Position numbers and translations under genes: made by a program
Shown: positions 39,901 through 51,100 of the stretch, in pieces
Numbering within the stretch: position 1 is the stretch's first letter
Layout of the letters: each line of letters opens with the position of its first letter
The notes under the pieces: generated by a model
What the model was told of the DNA's origin: nothing
Database searches by the model: none
Seen by the model: only the letters and a program-made list of their open reading frames with translations
From: Citrus sinensis
Taxonomy: Eukaryota > Streptophyta > Magnoliopsida > Sapindales > Rutaceae
Assembly: GCF_022201045.2 (NCBI RefSeq)
Contig: NC_068564.1
Span: 33,385,001 to 33,449,000 of the forward strand
DNA length: 64,000 bases
Direction: 5' to 3'

Positions 39901-40794
39901 GGCTTACATGGGTCTTTTTAATTTTTCTGTTCGGTGCCATGCCTTCTGTTTTCTACATTTTGCTTTTGTTAAAAACAAAAAAAATTGGTGTACTTGGCAG
40001 TACATATGACAATGTAAAAAGTGTTTGATAACAAAAATATTTACATTTGGTGGGGGTCGAAGTTCTCTACTCCCATTGTAATGCTCATTGGCCATTGCCG
40101 AGACATATTCTCTCACCAAATTTTGTAGAAAATACCGAAATCCAAATTGCACGCTTATGTTGAAACAACGATAGATCTGTTGGGCTAATATGGTCCTGCC
40201 CTATAAGCAAATTTCATGGACTGACCATGTGAAAGCGAACCCAGGCCCATCTTTCACATTTAAACGATTTTGATTTTGGATCAAGTGTATCAACATTTCC
40301 AAAGTAAAAAGAATTCAGCATTCATATTCTAGTGTTAAACCTTTAACTTTGATTATACATAAACCTTTCATATTTGAAGCTCTGCTTCACATATTATGTA
40401 TACGTTTCTTCGCAAAAATTCAATATATCTGTTGTTGGGAAATGGGAATTCGTGATGGGGATCATCAATTCTGCAATGCCGGCGACAGATTATGACCCAA
40501 CAATAAATCTCAAATCGCCTCAAAGAGTGTGATGACATTAACTGGATGGACCATGGGGCCTCGCAACTCTACGATTACTTGTTTGCATAAAATTAGACAA
40601 TCATGCAAATGTTCGCTCAAATGAATCTGTGAATGACCAATTGGATATAGCGACATTGATAATACACAGCACGAATAATTGTTTCTTGCTTTTGAAAACC
40701 AGTTTTGAGAAATGAAAATGAGGACTCTTGGTCTTTTTATTCTGTATAAAGGACTCTTGCGCCGACCTTTGTGATGATAATTTACTTTCAGCAA
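33917..40794. other. Gene-poor AT-rich region with microsatellites
   Basis: Nearly 7 kb without a recognisable gene. Simple repeats include (CT)n at 34159-34183, (AT)n at 34407-34431, an AGT/AAT run at about 35385-35425, a run of 19 C at about 36383-36401, and a (GAT)n run near 36527-36553. One bounded repeat is listed separately at 36215-36895. I looked for tRNA- and miRNA-like signals by eye and found none. Confidence 0.5.
36215..36895. mobile_element. MITE-like element with GGTACGTTTACT ends
   Basis: The left end GGTACGTTTACTTC is mirrored by AGTAAATGCACC at the right. Subterminal stretches also mirror each other (GGAATCGGAATCAAAAT versus ATTTTGATTCCAA, CTCATTCTGATTCC). The interior holds a poly-C tract and a GAT repeat. 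I could not identify a clean target-site duplication, so the superfamily is open. Confidence 0.6.
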
Positions 40795-42139
40795 TGTATC
40801 AGAGTGGAGGAACCCATGCACAAATTTTCCAGCAAACATCAACCGAACAATATAAAAAACAATTCGGTGAAGCACTTTACGGAGCTGGATCGGATCTTAT
40901 CAAAAGTGAATTAAGTGCTTATGGCGACAAGCTCCTGGGATCAGGCTCAGCTTTTGTGCATAGATAGCAACGTATGTCACAATTGCACATAAAGTTTCAG
41001 CTTCTAATGAATTAAGTGCTTTTCCAACTTCCAAGAATGTTCTAATGGTTTTGAAAAGGTTCTACAGATTGGCAGATATTTCTCCAACCCACGATATTAT
41101 TTTCAAGTGAACGATCAGTATGTGCAAAATAAGCTGAAAGTGATTCTGTTTCCATTTTGACACAGGGTAGGTGATTACCAATTTCTAATTGATCATTCTA
41201 CTATTTCTATGGGCTTAGCTATCATCTGCACTGATTGATTCTTTGAAACTTTTGCAGGGGCATTGGATGAGAGCAACTGAGACAGTTAAAGGGAAGTTTT
41301 GTTACAAACCGCCAATTGATGATATAAATGCTCCCAATCTGTACATTCCATTGATGGCATTTGGTACTTTTGTTGTTCTCGCTGGTTTCTTCCTCGGTAT
41401 AAATGGAAAGTAAGTTCTTATATATATTCATATATTTTATTTTTCGACATTCTATGTATTGCTAGACTAAACAGAATTTCACAGACTTTTTACACGTTCT
41501 AAAATACAATATTGAGGCCAATGAATACCATATAACTGTAGTTTAATATTTAATTGCTATTAGACACTAATGTAAATTTTAATTAACCTTAAATCCGTAT
41601 TATAAAATATGGAACCCTGCCCTAGAGGACTCATATATGCATTACTTGGTGTAAAAATTTTGTCAAACGGTTCAAAGCAGCTAACTAAACATTACAGAAT
41701 ATATAGTTTCACCTAAATTTGAATATTCTTGAACGTCTATGTTACCTCTTTCAGATTTAGCCCTGAGGCTTTGGGTGTACAATTTACAAACGGATTACTT
41801 TGCTGGTTATTCCAAGTCCTACTCATGGAGGCGACGTTGCACATGTTAGGCGATGGAGAGATACTGTTACTCGACGTCGTTGCCTACAGCGGATACACCT
41901 TTGTCGCGGTTTCAATTGCCCTAGTGGCTAAAGTTATTACTTGCGGCTATTGTTATTATGTCGTTAGTGTGTGGAAAAGCTTTTGCATGGGAACGTTGTT
42001 TGTGAAAATCCTGAAGAGGATTTTAGTTGCTGAGGTGAGAATCTGTGAGAAGCATTCAAGCAAGAGGCATCATCTCTTGCTTTTGGTTGCCATTGCTCAG
42101 CTTCCATTGCTGTTTTGGCTTGGAAATGTTGGTGTTTGA
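40795..42139 (+). pseudogene. YIF1-like: YIF1-family ER-Golgi membrane protein gene, apparently decaying
   Basis: Four exons are visible: 40795-40971, 41068-41166, 41258-41409, 41755-42139. YIF1 proteins pair with YIP1 in ER-to-Golgi vesicles and have about five membrane spans. The N-terminal exon starts MYQSGG and has FGEALYGAGSDLIKSELSAYG. Exon 2 has RYFSNPRYYFQVNDQYVQNK. Exons 3-4 have [27 protein letters not shown] and a hydrophobic C-terminus ending LLFWLGNVGV, all typical. Two defects are seen: a net shift of about 4 bases at the end of exon 1 (TAGATAG where family members have the codons before the SN of the splice) creates TAG, and exon 2 has TGA where the family has Leu in FPFLHRGHW. 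All splice sites survive and exons 3-4 are open, so the loss looks recent. It could be a duplicate of a working YIF1 elsewhere. Confidence 0.75.
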
Positions 42140-42691
42140 TTATTGTAATTAATTTGAATTCGTGAGTGCTTGGTGTGGCTTTTGGAAATGCCATTAGTGA
42201 TTTTTTTTTTTTTTAATTCTAAAAGCCCTTATCAAAGTTTTTTCGTCGTGTTTCATTAATTTTGGAAAAGAGATTTTGGGCTCTTTAGAAGCTATTTTGT
42301 CTTTACTCCTAAAAGGCTATCTAATATCATAAATGCACTAATATAATTTTATTAATTTGAAAATACCCATATATAGATATATAGTTATTGACCAACCATA
42401 ACCGTTTTTACTCTTTTAGATAGAGAAACATTAGTTTTTGAAAAGTTTAAAATTTTATTAATGAAAGTTTAGATAATAAAACGTTTCAAAAAAAAAAAAA
42501 GATAATAAAACTAGTGTTTTGATCTTGTATACTAAAATAGGTAAACTCAAAATATTATTACATAATAAAATTCCCTTAACTAAAAAAAAAAGAAAAAAAA
42601 AAGGACAAATGGCACTGGAGAAAAATAATAAAACCTCCATGTTATCCAGTTAATCTTACTCCCTTGATGTTTTGAAACACATTCATATCTC

Positions 42692-43229
42692 CATGGGTGT
42701 CAAATTTTTTGCTGATCTTATTAGTTTGTCTTCCATGGTTGTTAGATATTAACCATATAAATACACTTAATTATTTAATTAATTGAAGATTTTTAATCAT
42801 ATTTAATTGAAAACTAAATTTAGAGTTATCCAAGAAGGCAATGGAATTGTCATAATTTTTTAATTAATTCTGAATTTTTTTAGAATTTGATAAAAATTAA
42901 ATGCGCGAACATGCACACACATACATTATTTTTATTGTTTCAAATACCCTCGTCTTATTATTTTCCAAAAAAATAGTATATGTATGTTTATTTTGTATTC
43001 AATTTTTTAATTAATTCTAGAAAAATTTTCAGAACTAATTAGAAAATTATGACAATTCCCTTACTTTTTCAAATAATTTTGCGTTTAATTTTTCAATTAA
43101 TTATAACTAAACAATTATTAAATTAATTAAATAATTAAAGGTATTTATATTTCCAACATCAAAACAACCACAGGATTTGGCTGTATTTTAAAATATTAAG
43201 AGATTTGAAAAATTATGACAACATGGCAG
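42692..43229. repeat. Foldback element with arms of about 150-190 bp
   Basis: The left arm (GGTTGTTAGATATTAACC, then TTAATTATTTAATTAATT, then GGAATTGTCATAATTTT) reappears in the same order when the right arm is read from the other strand. The arms are separated by a loop of about 120-150 bp (near 42890-43015). Similarity tapers outward. Likely a MITE or foldback transposon; ends are approximate and I found no target duplication. Confidence 0.65.
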
Positions 43230-43774
43230 CCTTGCTCTTTTGTGTGAACCATTTCTTACCAAAGCAAAATCGAATCTTCTTGACAAATCTTTACAGAAGA
43301 ACTAGTTTTATATGCCGTCTTTACGAAAGAACTAGTTTTACATTGAAACACTCTGTTCGTAAACCAAGTGTTATTGAATATTGAATTCAAAAACAAAGGA
43401 AAAATTTTTAGTTTCCTCCAATATTTTCATTTTATAACCATGTAATATATATTGATTGAACAAAGAACTGAGAATTATTAAGTCAAGATGGTGGATTGAA
43501 ATTGTAAATTTAGTGGATGAAGAGGAAAATTGCAGCCTAAAACTAATAGTTACAAAAATTGTGAATGATAAAATACAAGCATGAAAAAGAATTTTATTAT
43601 TTGGGACAATGACAATTATGTGAAGGATCGGAAGTCTTCAAATTGTTGTGAATATAAAAAGTTGCAATATATGATTCCAGTCTTGTGAATAAACGAAGAT
43701 TAATTAATTAAACAGGTTTAATTAATTAAATAAGTTGACCTTGACCTTAAGATTGCCTAGTTTAGGATTGTGGT

Positions 43775-44252
43775 TAGGGATGGCAAATTGTGGGCTTGGG
43801 CCGGGCTTTTCGAAGCCCAGGCCCAAGCACACATCATCCAAATAAAGTTCAGATCCTTCAAAAGTTTGTCCAAAATCGGAGGGTCGGGCTTGGGCCGTTG
43901 AAATTAATTATAAAATATTTTTTAAATTAAGAAAAAAAATTTAAATTAAAGATAATCATCTAATATATAATAGAATAATAGTCCAATACATAAAATATTA
44001 GTAATACAACCTAATAAAATAACAATTATTAATATAAAAATTAAACTAATTTAATATTTTGAGTTTTTTTCTTTTTTATTTAAATTGAATTTATTTTTTA
44101 TTCATAAATTTAAAAAGCCTAGGCCAAGTCCAGCCTTTTTTGCTAAGCCCTTGTCCATGCCCAACATATGTGGGTTTTACAATTTTTGGGCCCATATACA
44201 GGCCCACCCAGAGTGAGCCGGGCTTTAGGCCCGGACTTTTTTGCCACTCCTA
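43775..44252. mobile_element. Non-autonomous hAT-type element, 478 bp
   Basis: It begins TAGGGATGGCAAATTGTGGG and ends TTTTTTGCCACTCCTA. An exact 8-bp duplication ATTGTGGT flanks it (43767-43774, 44253-44260). Subterminal zones carry GGGCTTGGGCCGGGC-like GC-rich units on both ends and the core is AT-rich. Same architecture as the element at 11148-11593 but a different subterminal repeat. Confidence 0.92.
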
Positions 44253-44421
44253 ATTGTGGTTTCTAATTAAATAAGCTATTTTTACTGTGTGAATACAACA
44301 AGCAATTGATTGAAAAAGCGGATTGGTGTTTAATAATCTATGGTGTTGTGATTGCTGTGAGTTTGAAAAACAGTTTATATGCGTTTGGTAAATTTTATTA
44401 CAAATGTATTATTCATTATAT

Positions 44422-45435
44422 GGCCAAAACTACTTTACATCATGGGTTTGGTACCCCACTCGTTTGTCATTTACCAATGTCAGCGTTGGATTTTATCTAA
44501 CAGCTACAAAAGATACACATAGAGAATTTGAGCAACCTGAGAAACCGGTTAGGAGCCGGTCACCTGGTGGAAAACAACTGATTGGAAAAGAGCACATGTA
44601 ATCGATTAGAAGTTTTTAAGTTTTTTGACAGCTTACCCATTTAAACAAATAACAAACCGAGATATGCAGCTAATGGTTGCAAACAACTTTTTGCAAGGGT
44701 GCTAGTATTGGTTGGACTAAGATTGATACAAATTTCTCATAATTATGTCTTAAATATTTGCAAATGATCAGGTTATGTATTGCCAAACATAATATATTCT
44801 CATTTTCTACGTCTTCATGCCATTCTCTATTTTACAACCAAGCCTAACATCTTATGCCCATTTATGCTTCTTCATGCCTACCCAGCTCCCACCAACTCTG
44901 CAACCTTCTAGAGCTGGTCGAGTAAAGCACGTTGTTGCCGAGAAATCTCTTCACTTCCGGACCTAAAACCTTTTGTTTTGCTGCTTCCATCAAATTTTTT
45001 TGTTGAAGATACTGAGGAAGAAAATGCACATTTTGAAGAAAAACCCATTTGTTGTTGATGGTTTCTGAATAAGAACTCATGGCGTGGATCAGAGAATGGT
45101 AGTTTAGGGATGTAAGGAGAGGAAAAGTCTAAACTTCCTGATGAGTTGTGGCGCTTTGGTTGTGGCTGAAGCAAGTGGCTGTGGTGGTGATGGTGTTCCT
45201 GGTGCAGAGGATAAGCACTCAAAGGCAAAAGAAAGTTTGGATTTTGACGATGCTAAGACTGCACTTGTTGGTGATTCATAAATATCTGAGGATCAAAAAA
45301 GCATCTTCAGCCTGTTATCCATTTTCTAAATATTAAATCTCAGCCGTTAAATATCTTTCTTCACAATCTAAAGGGTCATTGGCTATAAGACAAATGATAG
45401 GGGTACCAAACCCATGATGCAAGGTAGCTGGACCC
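44422..45435. mobile_element. Pack-MULE-like element carrying a host gene fragment
   Basis: Terminal inverted repeats run for about 60 bp: the left end reads GGCCAAAACTACTTTACATC and the right end, from the other strand, GGGTCCAGCTACCTTGCATC; both continue ATGGGTTTGGTACCCC and then a TTTGTC block. An exact 9-bp direct repeat, TCATTATAT, lies at 44413-44421 and 45436-45444, the target length of Mutator-like elements. There is no transposase. The interior (about 44860-45330) holds a coding-like stretch on the minus strand resembling part of a plant GRAS gene. Mutator elements that mobilise gene pieces are called Pack-MULEs. Confidence 0.85.
44908..45300 (-). pseudogene. Captured gene fragment, possibly GRAS (HAM/SCL6-22-27 type)
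   Basis: The minus strand encodes a Gln/His/Ser-rich stretch: QIFMNHQQVQS, a stop, then NFLLPLSAYPLHQEHHHHH, PQPKRHNSSGSLDFSS, KLPFSDPRHEFLFRNHQ and EEISRQQRALLDQL, then a stop. This low-complexity text followed by QQxALLDQL resembles the region just before the GRAS domain of HAIRY MERISTEM-type regulators, where QQQQAIIDQL leads into the domain. The GRAS domain itself is absent. It lies fully inside the Mutator-type inverted repeats. The source family is a tentative call from memory; that it is a gene piece is better supported. Confidence 0.5.
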
Positions 45436-45444
45436 TCATTATAT

Positions 45445-46431
45445 AAGACAAAATAGACATAAGTTTAAATTACCTTTTATTTTGTTTAGTATATTTAATG
45501 ATATTTAAACATGCATTTTTCTTTTTAAAATACGTAAAAATATATAAAGTGAAAAAAAGAACTCAATAAATTTATTATATATAATATGATAAAAATTCAT
45601 ACTTGTACATACTTAAGATAAAATAAAAAAGTAATTTGCATTATATTCATATTAAATTTGATGCAATAAACACCATAACTATAGAAAAAAATATAAATAT
45701 ATTGGATATTAAAAACCATGGTTATGACATTAATTTCATAAGTTATGATTAATTTTCATGTGAAATTGTTAAAAGTTCAAAAAAATTTACATAATTATAT
45801 ACAAACCTATTTTTATCTTATAATAGAAAATAAAAGTAAGATATAAAAAAAATATGAACTTACTAGATCAAAACTTTGATACTAGAGAGAATATATAGTA
45901 GTTGTCGCAGTAATTTAATTGTGGTGGTAATATAATATCTAATGGTCTAATATTATGGTGTATAGGAAAATAAGACATAAGTATATTATAGTGTATGGGA
46001 AAACAAGACATAATTATTTTTTTAAAATATTAAGATTATAATATGAACTTTAAAAAAGTATAACAACTTAATTTATAAGCTACTTATGAAAAAATGACTA
46101 TCTACTTGTTTTTAAAAGTTACTGTAAAAAAAAAAAAGTTACGGTCAAGATAGAAAAAATACTATGCATGCGTTTAAAGTTATGGGTTAGACACTATTTC
46201 ATATGTATAACTGTATTATTAATAAAAAATAAATTTAACATAATTAATATAAATAAATGTACAATCAATAAATAAGTTTTAAAATTATCATAAATCATTA
46301 AATATAAAATTAATTTCTTTAAAAACTTAGGAAATTTACAAAGTAAATAGATGATATTTTTCTTAAAATTTGACTAAATTTTAATTTAAAAATGTATTAA
46401 AATTAGGTACATATAATTTTATAATGTAATT

Positions 46432-46476
<45 letters not shown>

Positions 46477-48157
46477 AAATAAGTATCAAATAAACTTTTA
46501 TTATTTTTATTTTTCTAGATAAGCTACTAAACGTATTTTTACAATTCTCATTTTTAGACATCAATCTAAAAGTAAACTGTGAAATATATTTTTATTTTTA
46601 TCAAAAACTAATCATTCTTGTTCTATAAACAAAATCAAAAACACGATATGAAAAAATTACCAAATGCATCCTAAGCTTTCAATAAAGGAACCCAAGACTT
46701 TTATTGACTATAATGTCCCCTGACTCTATAAACCTAAAAGTTGGCCTCAAAATTTTATATTAAATAGAAAATGATATTAACATAAATGTAATAATATATA
46801 TATTTAAAATAATTTTAATATTTAAAAAATATTTTAATATTTTACAATCTATTAGACCTATTTTATTATATTAAAGTAATATTTAATAATAAATAGAAAC
46901 ATAATTTTAAAATAAATAAAAATAAAAATTATTTTGAATATTATGCAAAAAATAATTTTAATATTGTTAATAAGGAGATATTTTATTAATTTTAGAATTT
47001 ATTTAACCTAAAGATTTATTTAAAATCTGTATAATAAATACGAGTATATTATTTAAATAAATGTAATAGCTTTAAATTTTAATATTATTTTAAATGTTAA
47101 AAATAATTTAATATTATTAGTCCACTATATAGATTATATTTTATATTAAGTTTTTATTGGTTAAAAAATTTAAAGTTAATTTTTAACTATTATATTTAAA
47201 TATTATTATGATTAAAAAAATTCTATTAACTATTTTTTAAAAATTTAATAACATATATAATTATTTTTTCGTATTTTGAGAATATAGATGTCCTTTTTCT
47301 CCAAAATATATAAATATCAATTTGCAAAGGAATGTTGTCGGAAGCATAGCTGCCCGATGGCGGCGTGGGCTTTACTAGTTACTATTCACCGTCCAAACAA
47401 AAAAAAAATAAAAATGAAAATCCTAATATTATAAATAGCACATTATTTTCAACTTTCCCTTTTAATTTCTCTCACTGACTCTCCAATTTCTCCTTTGATT
47501 TTTTTTTTAATTTTTCATTTTTTTGGTAGAATAAAGCAGACAGGTAATTAACTGACTCCTCGAGTCTGACGAATCCAAACTCCTTATTCCTTTTAATGTC
47601 CTTTTGTCTTTTAATTCCTCGAAAAGGTATGTAAATCTAATGATCTTTAATTTCAAGATTTTGTTTTGATTGCTTTTGGTTAGAGACATGTAATTAAATG
47701 TTTAATCGGGGGAACGATCGTTAGAATCGAATCAAAAAATTGTCAAATCTGATTTGTTGATCGACTGTGCTGGGATTTTATTATTTTTTTGGTTTTTTTA
47801 TAGGCGAACTTTTAAAATTTCAGTTTGTAGATATATATATATATTTTTCAATTCAATATTGAAATCGTAGGAATTTGTAAGTTTCTTCTAACCTAGACCT
47901 GTCAAATGGTAGTTTTGGTGTTAGAGCCTGATTTTTGCTGCATCTGATTGGTTATTTGTTGTTTAGGTTTCATATTTTTGCTGTATCTGATTAGGTATTG
48001 AAGCTTTGGTTGTTGCGGCATCTGGTTGTGCTTTTGGTGTGAAATTTTATATTTTTGCTGCAATTGATTATGGCTTTGGTGTTAAATTTGATGTCCTTTT
48101 CTTTTCTTTTTGTTTTTTCCCCACCTTCTCTTTGCAGGTATTTTGTGAAACTCCATA
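45445..48157. other. AT-rich intergenic DNA, then leader of the SRP receptor gene
   Basis: 45.4-47.3 kb is very AT-rich with no gene seen and includes a long (AT)n run at about 46434-46472. The last 700 bp contain the CT-rich leader of the SRP receptor gene; a GT-AG intron (about 47544-48137) appears to split its 5' untranslated region, ending TTTGCAG 20 bp before the start codon. Confidence 0.5.
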
Positions 48158-51100
48158 ATGTTAGAGCAGTTACTGATCTTTACTAGAGGAGGGTTAATCC
48201 TCTGGACATGTAAGGAGCTAGGCAATGCTCTGAAAGGATCGCCGATTGACACGTTGATTCGGTCATGTCTTTTGGAGGAACGATCTGGTTTAGCATCGTT
48301 CAATTACGATTCTGCAGGTGCAGCATACACTCTCAAATGGACCTTTCATAATGAGCTCGGCCTGGTGTTTGTTGCCGTGTATCAGCGTATACTCCATCTG
48401 CTCTATGTGGATGATCTGCTGGCCATGATGAAGCAATCCTTTTCAGAGATTTATGATCCAAAACGAACTGACTATTCAGATTTTGATGAAATGTTTAGAC
48501 AACTTAGGAAGGAGGCAGAAGCTAGGGCGGAGGAGTTAAAGAAATCAAAGCAAGTTACTAAGCCTATGAATAACCTTAAGAAGCAGGGAGGACAGCTGCA
48601 AAAGGGTGGATTTGAAAGGGGAAGTAACAGGAGTGGAGGTGGCTCGGCAAATGATGACGGGGATAGTGATAATATGAGAGGCCGTAAATTGGAGAATGGA
48701 CACTCCAATGTCGGCAATGTTGAGATTGAAGAATCTAGGGTAACAGGTGTTGCTAACGGTAAAGAAAATACTAGTTCTAATATTGGGGCTTTTGATGTAA
48801 GTAAGTTACAGAAGTTAAGAAATAAAGGTGGTAAGAAAACTGATACTGTTGTTAGCAAGGGTTCAAATCCAGACCCAAAGAAAAAGATAACAAAGAAGAA
48901 CAGAGTTTGGGACGATTCGCCTCCAGAGTCCAAATTGGACTTCACGGATCCTGCAGGTGGAAATGGCAGTAATATCGAGGTTGAGGCAGCAGATCATGGT
49001 GAAAGTATGATGGACAAGGAAGAGGTTTTCAGCAGTGATAGTGAATCCGAAGAAGATGAAGAAGTGGGTAAGCACAACAAGCCTGATGCTAAGAAGACGG
49101 GCTGGTTTTCATCTATGTTCCAGAGGTATTTTTCCTTGATGACTCAATTTGGTTGATTAATCTCTTAATAAATCTGTTTGTTAAAAATATGTTCTATTTA
49201 TTAAATTGTCTTTATTTTTAACCCAGTATTGCTGGAAAGGCAAACTTGGATAAGGCAGACCTTGAACCCGCTCTGAAAGCTCTCAAGGATAGGCTCATGA
49301 CCAAGAATGTTGTATGTATCTGAATCTTTTACCTTTTTCCTCTGATGTTTATTAGTTTTTCTTTCATTTGCTATTCTGATCATTCTTAAGAAGTTGTTAA
49401 TGGACTTGAGCACTGACATTTTAGGCTGAGGAGATAGCTGAGAAACTTTGTGAATCAGTTGCAGCAAGTCTTGAAGGCAAAAAGCTGGCCTCATTTACAA
49501 GGATTTCTTCAATTGTGCAGGTATTTGATTTTTAGTTTCCTCTAATATTTGAATTCTCCGATTTGTCTTCTTGCTTTTTGTTTTTGTTTTTGTTTTGTTT
49601 TTTTTGTTTTTTATATTTTATTTTATAAGAGCAAATGAGCAATATCATACTAAAATTACCACTGCAGGCTGCAATGGAAGAGGCTCTTGTTCGCATTTTA
49701 ACTCCTAGGCGTTCCATTGATATATTAAGAGATGTTCACGCTGCCAAGGAACAACGGAAGCCATATGTAGTTGTTTTCGTTGGTGTTAATGGAGTTGGGA
49801 AATCTACCAACCTAGCTAAGGTTAAGCTGATCATCTTGATAGATTTTGGGTAATTTAGGGCATATTTTCTGATCAAGCTTGCTAATTTCAAACTTGTCTA
49901 TGCAGGTAGCTTACTGGCTTCTTCAGCACAAGGTCAGTGTTATGATGGCTGCATGTGATACATTCCGCTCTGGCGCTGTCGAACAGTTGCGAACTCACGC
50001 ACGCAGGCTCCAGGTATGACTATGACATTAGTTATTCTTTCATGGTTATTAGCGTCTTCATTGGTTTGAAAATAGGGTAAACTTCAATATACCACATTCT
50101 TAGAATGACAATCTTCAATTTACCCCCCCAAAAGTGCGACAACGTCAATTTATACCTATTTACTATTAAGAAGAAATTAAAAAAAAAAAGGTCATCAATG
50201 CACCCCCCATTTGTCATCATCTTCTAAATGAAAATGGGGGTAAATTGAAGTTTTCAAACTTCTGGATAAATTGAAGATTGTCATTGGAATTGAAGTTTAC
50301 CCTTGAAAACATACATAATCACTTGTTTCTAATGGTGCTTGCCAGGTCCCTATATTTGAAAAGGGCTATGAAAAAGATCCTGCAATTGTTGCAAAGGAAG
50401 CTATCCAGGAGGCCACACGCAATGGCTCTGATGTTGTTCTTGTTGATACAGCTGGTCGGATGCAAGTAATCATCGAATATTATCTGTTTTTATTGCATAT
50501 ATATTTGCATACTGTCTGTGAGCATTTTGTGAATATTATCACTTTTCGAGGTATGTGGAGCTTTGATTGTTTGAAACGAAAAGAAGCAAAGTGAGCAAGC
50601 AATAAAAAGACCCACTTATACTGGTGTTATTGGGATTTGCTTTAGTGATATCTAAGTTGGATATTGATTTGAAACCTATGGTTTGCGTGCACATTTCTTA
50701 CTCCTCTTCTGTTAATATATCTATATTAATATTATTAGGATAATGAGCCGCTGATGAGGGCACTGTCAAAGCTTATCTACCTCAACAATCCAGACCTTGT
50801 CCTGTTTGTCGGAGAGGCTCTAGTGGGGAATGATGCTGTTGATCAACTGTCTAAGTTCAATCAGGTTGGTTTCGTATTCAGGATTTTATATGTTGCTTTT
50901 ACTGTGCCTATCTGTTAACGTTATTGTTCTAAAATCTCCAAATATTTTATGATCACGATCATCCATTTTTCTTCTTGCAGAAATTAGCTGACCTGTCGTC
51001 TTCTCCTAATCCACAATTGATTGATGGGATATTGCTCACTAAATTCGATACAATTGATGATAAGGTAGGCAATTAACTCTGCCTATTCACATCCATGCAT

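Follow-up and report, generated by a model that had tools for sequence, protein, structure and literature searches.

Pack-MULEs are said to have been reported from rice, tomato and Arabidopsis by Jiang et al. in 2004, and Kaonashi or KI-MULEs reportedly carry a ULP1-like peptidase, as Hoen et al. are said to have found in 2006. The inverted repeats of TIR-MULEs are usually 100–500 bp long, and the commonest Pack-MULE size in tomato is 1000–1200 bp, according to sections of one account (PMC3310237). KIU-carrying Vandal elements appear in sections of another (PMC13317346). In Clementine, excerpts of a further source describe a Mutator-like element, CitMule, of 6.9 kb (~7 kb), with its own transposase and with inverted ends matching at 100% over 17 bp, 88% over 34 bp and 78% over 65 bp (PMC4334395). 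Citrus is not mentioned in the main text of PMC8903248. A literature search covering citrus MULEs, Pack-MULEs, gene capture and miR171/SCL6, with subscription papers mostly outside its scope, gave, among the titles listed, none reporting the capture described here, and no paper pairing a Pack-MULE with SCARECROW-LIKE or HAIRY MERISTEM with transposon capture.

The window analysed in this study is a stretch of 64,000 nt from Citrus sinensis (C9:33385001-33449000). It contains an element that is, with a probability of about 0.93, a Pack-MULE that carries ~410 bp taken from a GRAS gene of SCL6/HAM type and now occupies five or more sites. The observations that support this reading are the transposon anatomy, the copies, the target site duplications (TSDs), the single donor, the broken frame of the captured piece, and relatives with mutually similar interiors at the same joints.

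Anatomy, setting and copies of the element

The features of the locus are listed in Table 1. An earlier note on this DNA had proposed a Mutator-type element with host gene sequence, an exact 9-bp target duplication, inverted repeats of about 60 bp and no transposase. The proposal stood in its main points, as the TSD, the inverted ends, an intact donor and other copies were all found. The 9-mer is identical on the two sides, a match with p ~9e–06 at fixed positions given the base composition of the window, and its size lies within the 9–11 bp by which Pack-MULEs are recognised. The inverted ends do pair, with a local score of 60 (highest score among 500 single-base shuffles, 26), but the length proposed was slightly generous and the pairing is imperfect (43 identities in 51 aligned columns), with a 44-nt ungapped core that is 84% complementary. 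As these columns pair and the right end is shared with loci encoding MULE/FAR1 transposases (see below), the ends can be called MULE-homologous. Their shortness and imperfection, against the usual 100–500 bp of TIR-MULEs, count against a Pack-MULE. No transposase was found inside the element: the longest listed ORF that overlaps it is 106 aa, no stop-to-stop frame of at least 120 aa does so, and the piece of the 106-aa ORF at 44911-45228 had no Pfam match up to an E value of 10. No structured RNA was detected in it either, the three Rfam matches over 40000-50000 being sub-threshold and all outside the element.

Table 1. Features of the element in the window, and its copies elsewhere in the genome
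Feature	Position	Strand	Remarks
Whole element	44422..45435	.	1,014 bp, GGCCAAAACTAC...GTAGCTGGACCC; non-autonomous Mutator-like; bounded by TSDs; four more near full-length copies, 89–97% identity
Left 9-bp TSD, TCATTATAT	44413..44421	.	Identical to 45436-45444
Right 9-bp TSD, TCATTATAT	45436..45444	.	Identical to 44413-44421
Left terminal inverted repeat	44422..44480	+	Pairs with right end, 43/51 columns
Right terminal region	45300..45435	-	Most widely shared part of family; matched at 40 or more places, the five copies among them (40/61 candidates scored)
Internal transposon segment adjoining capture	44787..44885	+	Common to 5/20 fetched relatives (L044-L048) and transposase-bearing L064, all without the gene piece
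Captured fragment of SCL6/HAM-type (by appearance) GRAS gene	44881..45293	-	Donor codons 308-443, frame broken; 91% to C3:5718706-5719115
CCCAG, possible short microhomology (4–5 bp) at left capture edge	44881..44885	+	Also read in donor (L006:1501-1505) and L048
Copy	C3:34089194		97% identity to window element
Copy	C5:35761768		96% identity to window element
Copy	C9:5451510		96% identity to window element
Copy	C3:30872830		89% identity to window element

A YIF1-like frame (41723-42136, +) precedes the element and an SRP-receptor-alpha-type frame (48149-49153, +) follows it, 9 of the 29 stop-to-stop frames of at least 120 aa in the window having been compared with Pfam; no stop-to-stop frame of that size lies at the insertion. 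Just upstream is a separate element of 478 bp (43775-44252), with inverted ends TAGGGATGGCAA/TAGGAGTGGCAA and an exact 8-bp duplication, ATTGTGGT, at 43767-43774 and 44253-44260. We take it to be a hAT-type MITE.

The window's own genome (299.7 Mb, 11 contigs) was searched, and copies and donors were counted among the best candidates, which were the ones scored. Five near full-length copies were found, including that of the window, 89–100% identical and each at a different site. Direct repeats of ~9 bp flank all five (TCATTATAT, ATTGATTCTA, TACTTATAA, TAACTTGAC/TGACTTGAT and CAATTTTTA); they are exact over at least 9 bp in four, and the TAACTTGAC/TGACTTGAT pair has two mismatches. In L005, where CAATTTTTA is exact, the right end is offset by a base or two, and L004 is without ~20 bp near the left end. 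Besides these five copies, the right end, used as a query by itself, matched at a minimum of 35 places, a lower bound because 40 of the 61 candidates were scored. The possibility that the ends were unrelated repeats without other copies, which the earlier note had raised against itself, is contradicted by the four additional near full-length copies with TSDs of their own and by the many end matches. Since the same fragment is present in five copies at different places, the element was mobile after the capture.

For comparison, sequence around 20 of the remaining 35 right-end places was retrieved, together with the transposase locus L064 (n=21). Of these 20, 17 also yielded a left end, which was not found in L048, L058 and L060. 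In a search for additional captures, the interiors of three of the 20 (L050, L049 and L052) gave 50, 44 and 28 matches in the genome, many of them at other repeats; part of the L049 interior has two 80% matches, at C3:41001268 and C5:38196749. Also in L049 (L049:630-2660, C8:19976629-19978659), three relatives can be aligned on either side of a 303-bp piece but do not contain it; the piece, which has a 98% match at C2:30789843-30790145, is either a younger nested insertion or another acquisition. Two family members situated ~43.5 kb apart, C5:23103972-23105149 and C5:23060458-23061635, have identical interiors and equal scores at both ends, and probably represent one duplicated segment rather than two insertions.

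The captured fragment and its donor

When 44881-45296 was used as the query in the genome search, all six candidates were accounted for by the five element copies and C3:5718706-5719115. The fragment thus derives from a host gene with a separate intact parent, and has a single donor. The donor is an intact GRAS frame of 793 codons on the minus strand (C3:5717656-5720034; L006:451-2829), unbroken across the whole captured part, with a complete GRAS domain (PF03514, residues 430-792, E 3.4e–94). The earlier note had likened the fragment to the region ahead of a GRAS domain, and rightly so: the captured codons lie mostly ahead of the domain and extend slightly into it. Its reservation that there might be no intact genomic parent is answered by this open frame on C3. 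The captured piece is longer than the note had claimed, at ~410 bp from 44881 to a right limit of about 45293. The donor piece matching 44911-45228 had no Pfam match; the absence of a match in both the window and the donor is expected, because the piece is mostly ahead of the domain.

At L006:1460-1480, 20 nt outside the capture edge, the donor locus reads TGATTGAGCCGCGCCAATATC, an exact 21-mer. This we take to be the miR171 sequence, and the donor mRNA therefore carries its exact complement. The identification fits the MIR171 precursor matches in the genome: there are three exact instances of the miR171 complement and seven further ones with a single mismatch, all seven of the latter being overlapped by precursor matches above the Rfam cut-off. 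The two other exact sites, C3:51266800 and C3:51283904, are 17 kb apart and possibly mark a pair of neighbouring SCL6/HAM-type genes. Given its GRAS domain and its exact miR171-type site, from which the subfamily name is drawn, the donor looks like an SCL6/HAM-type gene, and it would presumably be cleaved by miR171. The predicted targets of citrus miR171b are SCL6 homologues, according to PMC10053592. The five element loci were also searched for the miR171-complementary site at a tolerance of four substitutions, and it was found in none.

The captured piece might be a functional RNA regulator, with transcripts or siRNAs from the five copies silencing or tuning the donor. The window copy shares seven exact runs of 20–39 nt with the donor locus, six of them of at least 21 nt, so that matching at the RNA level is physically possible, and siRNA from captured fragments acts on donor genes in maize, as stated in sections of PMC13317346. 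Against this, the copies lie at 0.07–0.10 from the donor (K2P, captured part) and are drifting without visible coding constraint, and essential donors are expected to be shielded (PMC13317346, in the same sections). Such a regulator is accordingly considered unlikely; were there any regulatory effect, it would most likely be exerted through RNA complementary to the donor. Less likely again is a more specific version, in which the five copies would give antisense or small RNA against the SCL6/HAM-type regulator as a second layer beside miR171, the element RNA escaping miR171 because the capture ends 20 nt before the target site. In a Pack-MULE of the kind proposed here, the captured piece would be a neutral passenger.

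The fragment should not be taken as a coding gene, as its frame is broken and there is no sign of constraint. What the earlier note had described as a Q/H/S-rich fragment on the minus strand is a real ORF (44908-45228), but its TTG 'start' is meaningless and two opposite frameshifts set it off from the donor. A protein with a function of its own, encoded in an open stretch of ~106–133 aa, might be argued from the fact that in four of the five copies (window and L002-L004) the common +1 shift is offset by a –1 shift, as well as from stop-to-stop stretches through the piece of 132, 132 and 133 aa in L002, L003 and L004. These shifts nevertheless bracket ~26 residues in the wrong frame, the +1 insertion is common to all five copies, in the same four copies the donor frame is closed by a common stop within the piece, with one stop more in the window copy, and L005 has further frame-breaking indels. 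Nor is there a third-position excess: variable sites among the copies fall on codon positions 1/2/3 as 16/13/13, and shared changes relative to the donor as 7/3/7 (columns gapped in any copy excluded). Because the frame-breaking insertion is present in all five copies and the changes are not concentrated at third positions, a working protein is very improbable, and the coding hypothesis was rejected on these grounds. Over the captured part, the copies differ from each other by 0.02–0.07 (K2P), about equal to the 0.02–0.07 of the rest of the element.

The capture event and a probable helper transposase

The same capture edges and the same +1 insertion relative to the donor were observed in all five copies, and 17 substitutions relative to the donor are common to them, although some of these may be donor-side changes. 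There is one capture event, with five descendant copies. The shared sequence by itself, being without direction, would also fit a GRAS gene derived from the element (exaptation) and not the reverse, but this is very unlikely with the shared piece inside a continuous 793-codon GRAS frame and with a match to the captured part (query 474-889) in none of the 21 fetched relatives.

The two flanks of the capture (q346/364-473 and q892-1023) are separated by 488–526 bp of other DNA in L044-L048 and L064. At the left joint, where it was aligned, this intervening DNA shows mutual similarity in all six loci. It looks ancestral for this reason, L064 being one of the six, and since it occupies the same joints, the gene piece most likely replaced ~0.5 kb of transposon interior. 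The letters at the left capture edge are CCCAG in three of the copies and CCCAA in two (L003 and L005); among the six uncaptured relatives they are CCCAG in L048, CCCAA in L064 and CCTAG in L044-L047. This microhomology may be a chance match, as it comprises only 4–5 bp and is exact in one of the six. A short A-rich filler is present at the right edge.

From these edges we infer that the donor would have been copied while a break within the element was being repaired, with the aid of a short template-switch match. On this reading, a Mutator-like transposon without a transposase of its own, mobilised by one of FAR1/MULE type from another locus, once copied ~410 bp of an SCL6/HAM-type GRAS gene, a putative miR171 target, which took the place of ~0.5 kb of its interior; it then spread to at least five sites with the fragment aboard.

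For the transposase protein of L064, the genome gave 52 matches. The best pair (C7:7376074-7378695 and C7:18700203-18702821) are 72% identical, and of the 52 they alone have one of the 46 listed end matches at a distance of up to 20 kb. Right ends are located 5.5 and 5.6 kb downstream of the respective transposases, at C7:7384161 and C7:18708470, and the first of the transposases (C7:7376074) contains MULE, FAR1 and related domains. These shared right ends suggest that the C7 FAR1/MULE transposases are likely helpers of the element. The left end and TSD of the L064 element were not found in 11.4 kb (L065 plus L064) by TSD, terminal motif or self-comparison, and there was no inverted counterpart near L064 among the end matches listed. 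With no left end in 11.4 kb, an autonomous partner is probable rather than proven. This locus also has a Peptidase_C48 (Ulp1-type) frame (L064:5337-5825; C7, minus strand), with the MULE/FAR1 transposase on one side of it and the right end on the other.

Significance and comparison with known systems

The locus offers a clean capture, with one donor, one event, five copies, uncaptured relatives and a probable helper transposase. It therefore lends itself to testing how Mutator elements acquire pieces of genes, and whether a regulator under microRNA control ever receives feedback from captured parts of itself. Regulation of the donor is the sole reading that would raise the interest of the element, which by itself leaves existing knowledge of Pack-MULEs unchanged: it is a known phenomenon, unusually well resolved.

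The probable helper at L064 resembles the Kaonashi or KI-MULEs in the Peptidase_C48-like frame between its transposase and its right end, whereas the window element is without such a peptidase. CitMule, as described in excerpts of its report, has the A/T-rich 9-bp target duplications and short degenerate inverted ends seen here, and FAR1 and MULE domains are found both in its transposase and in the probable helper; it differs in being 6.9 kb long with a transposase of its own, and those excerpts mention no captured gene (PMC4334395). In comparison with Pack-MULEs, as characterised in sections of PMC3310237, the inverted ends of the window element are shorter and less similar than the 100–500 bp of TIR-MULEs, but it shares with them its non-autonomous nature, flanking TIRs, 9-bp TSD, host gene fragment, lack of a transposase and size of ~1 kb.
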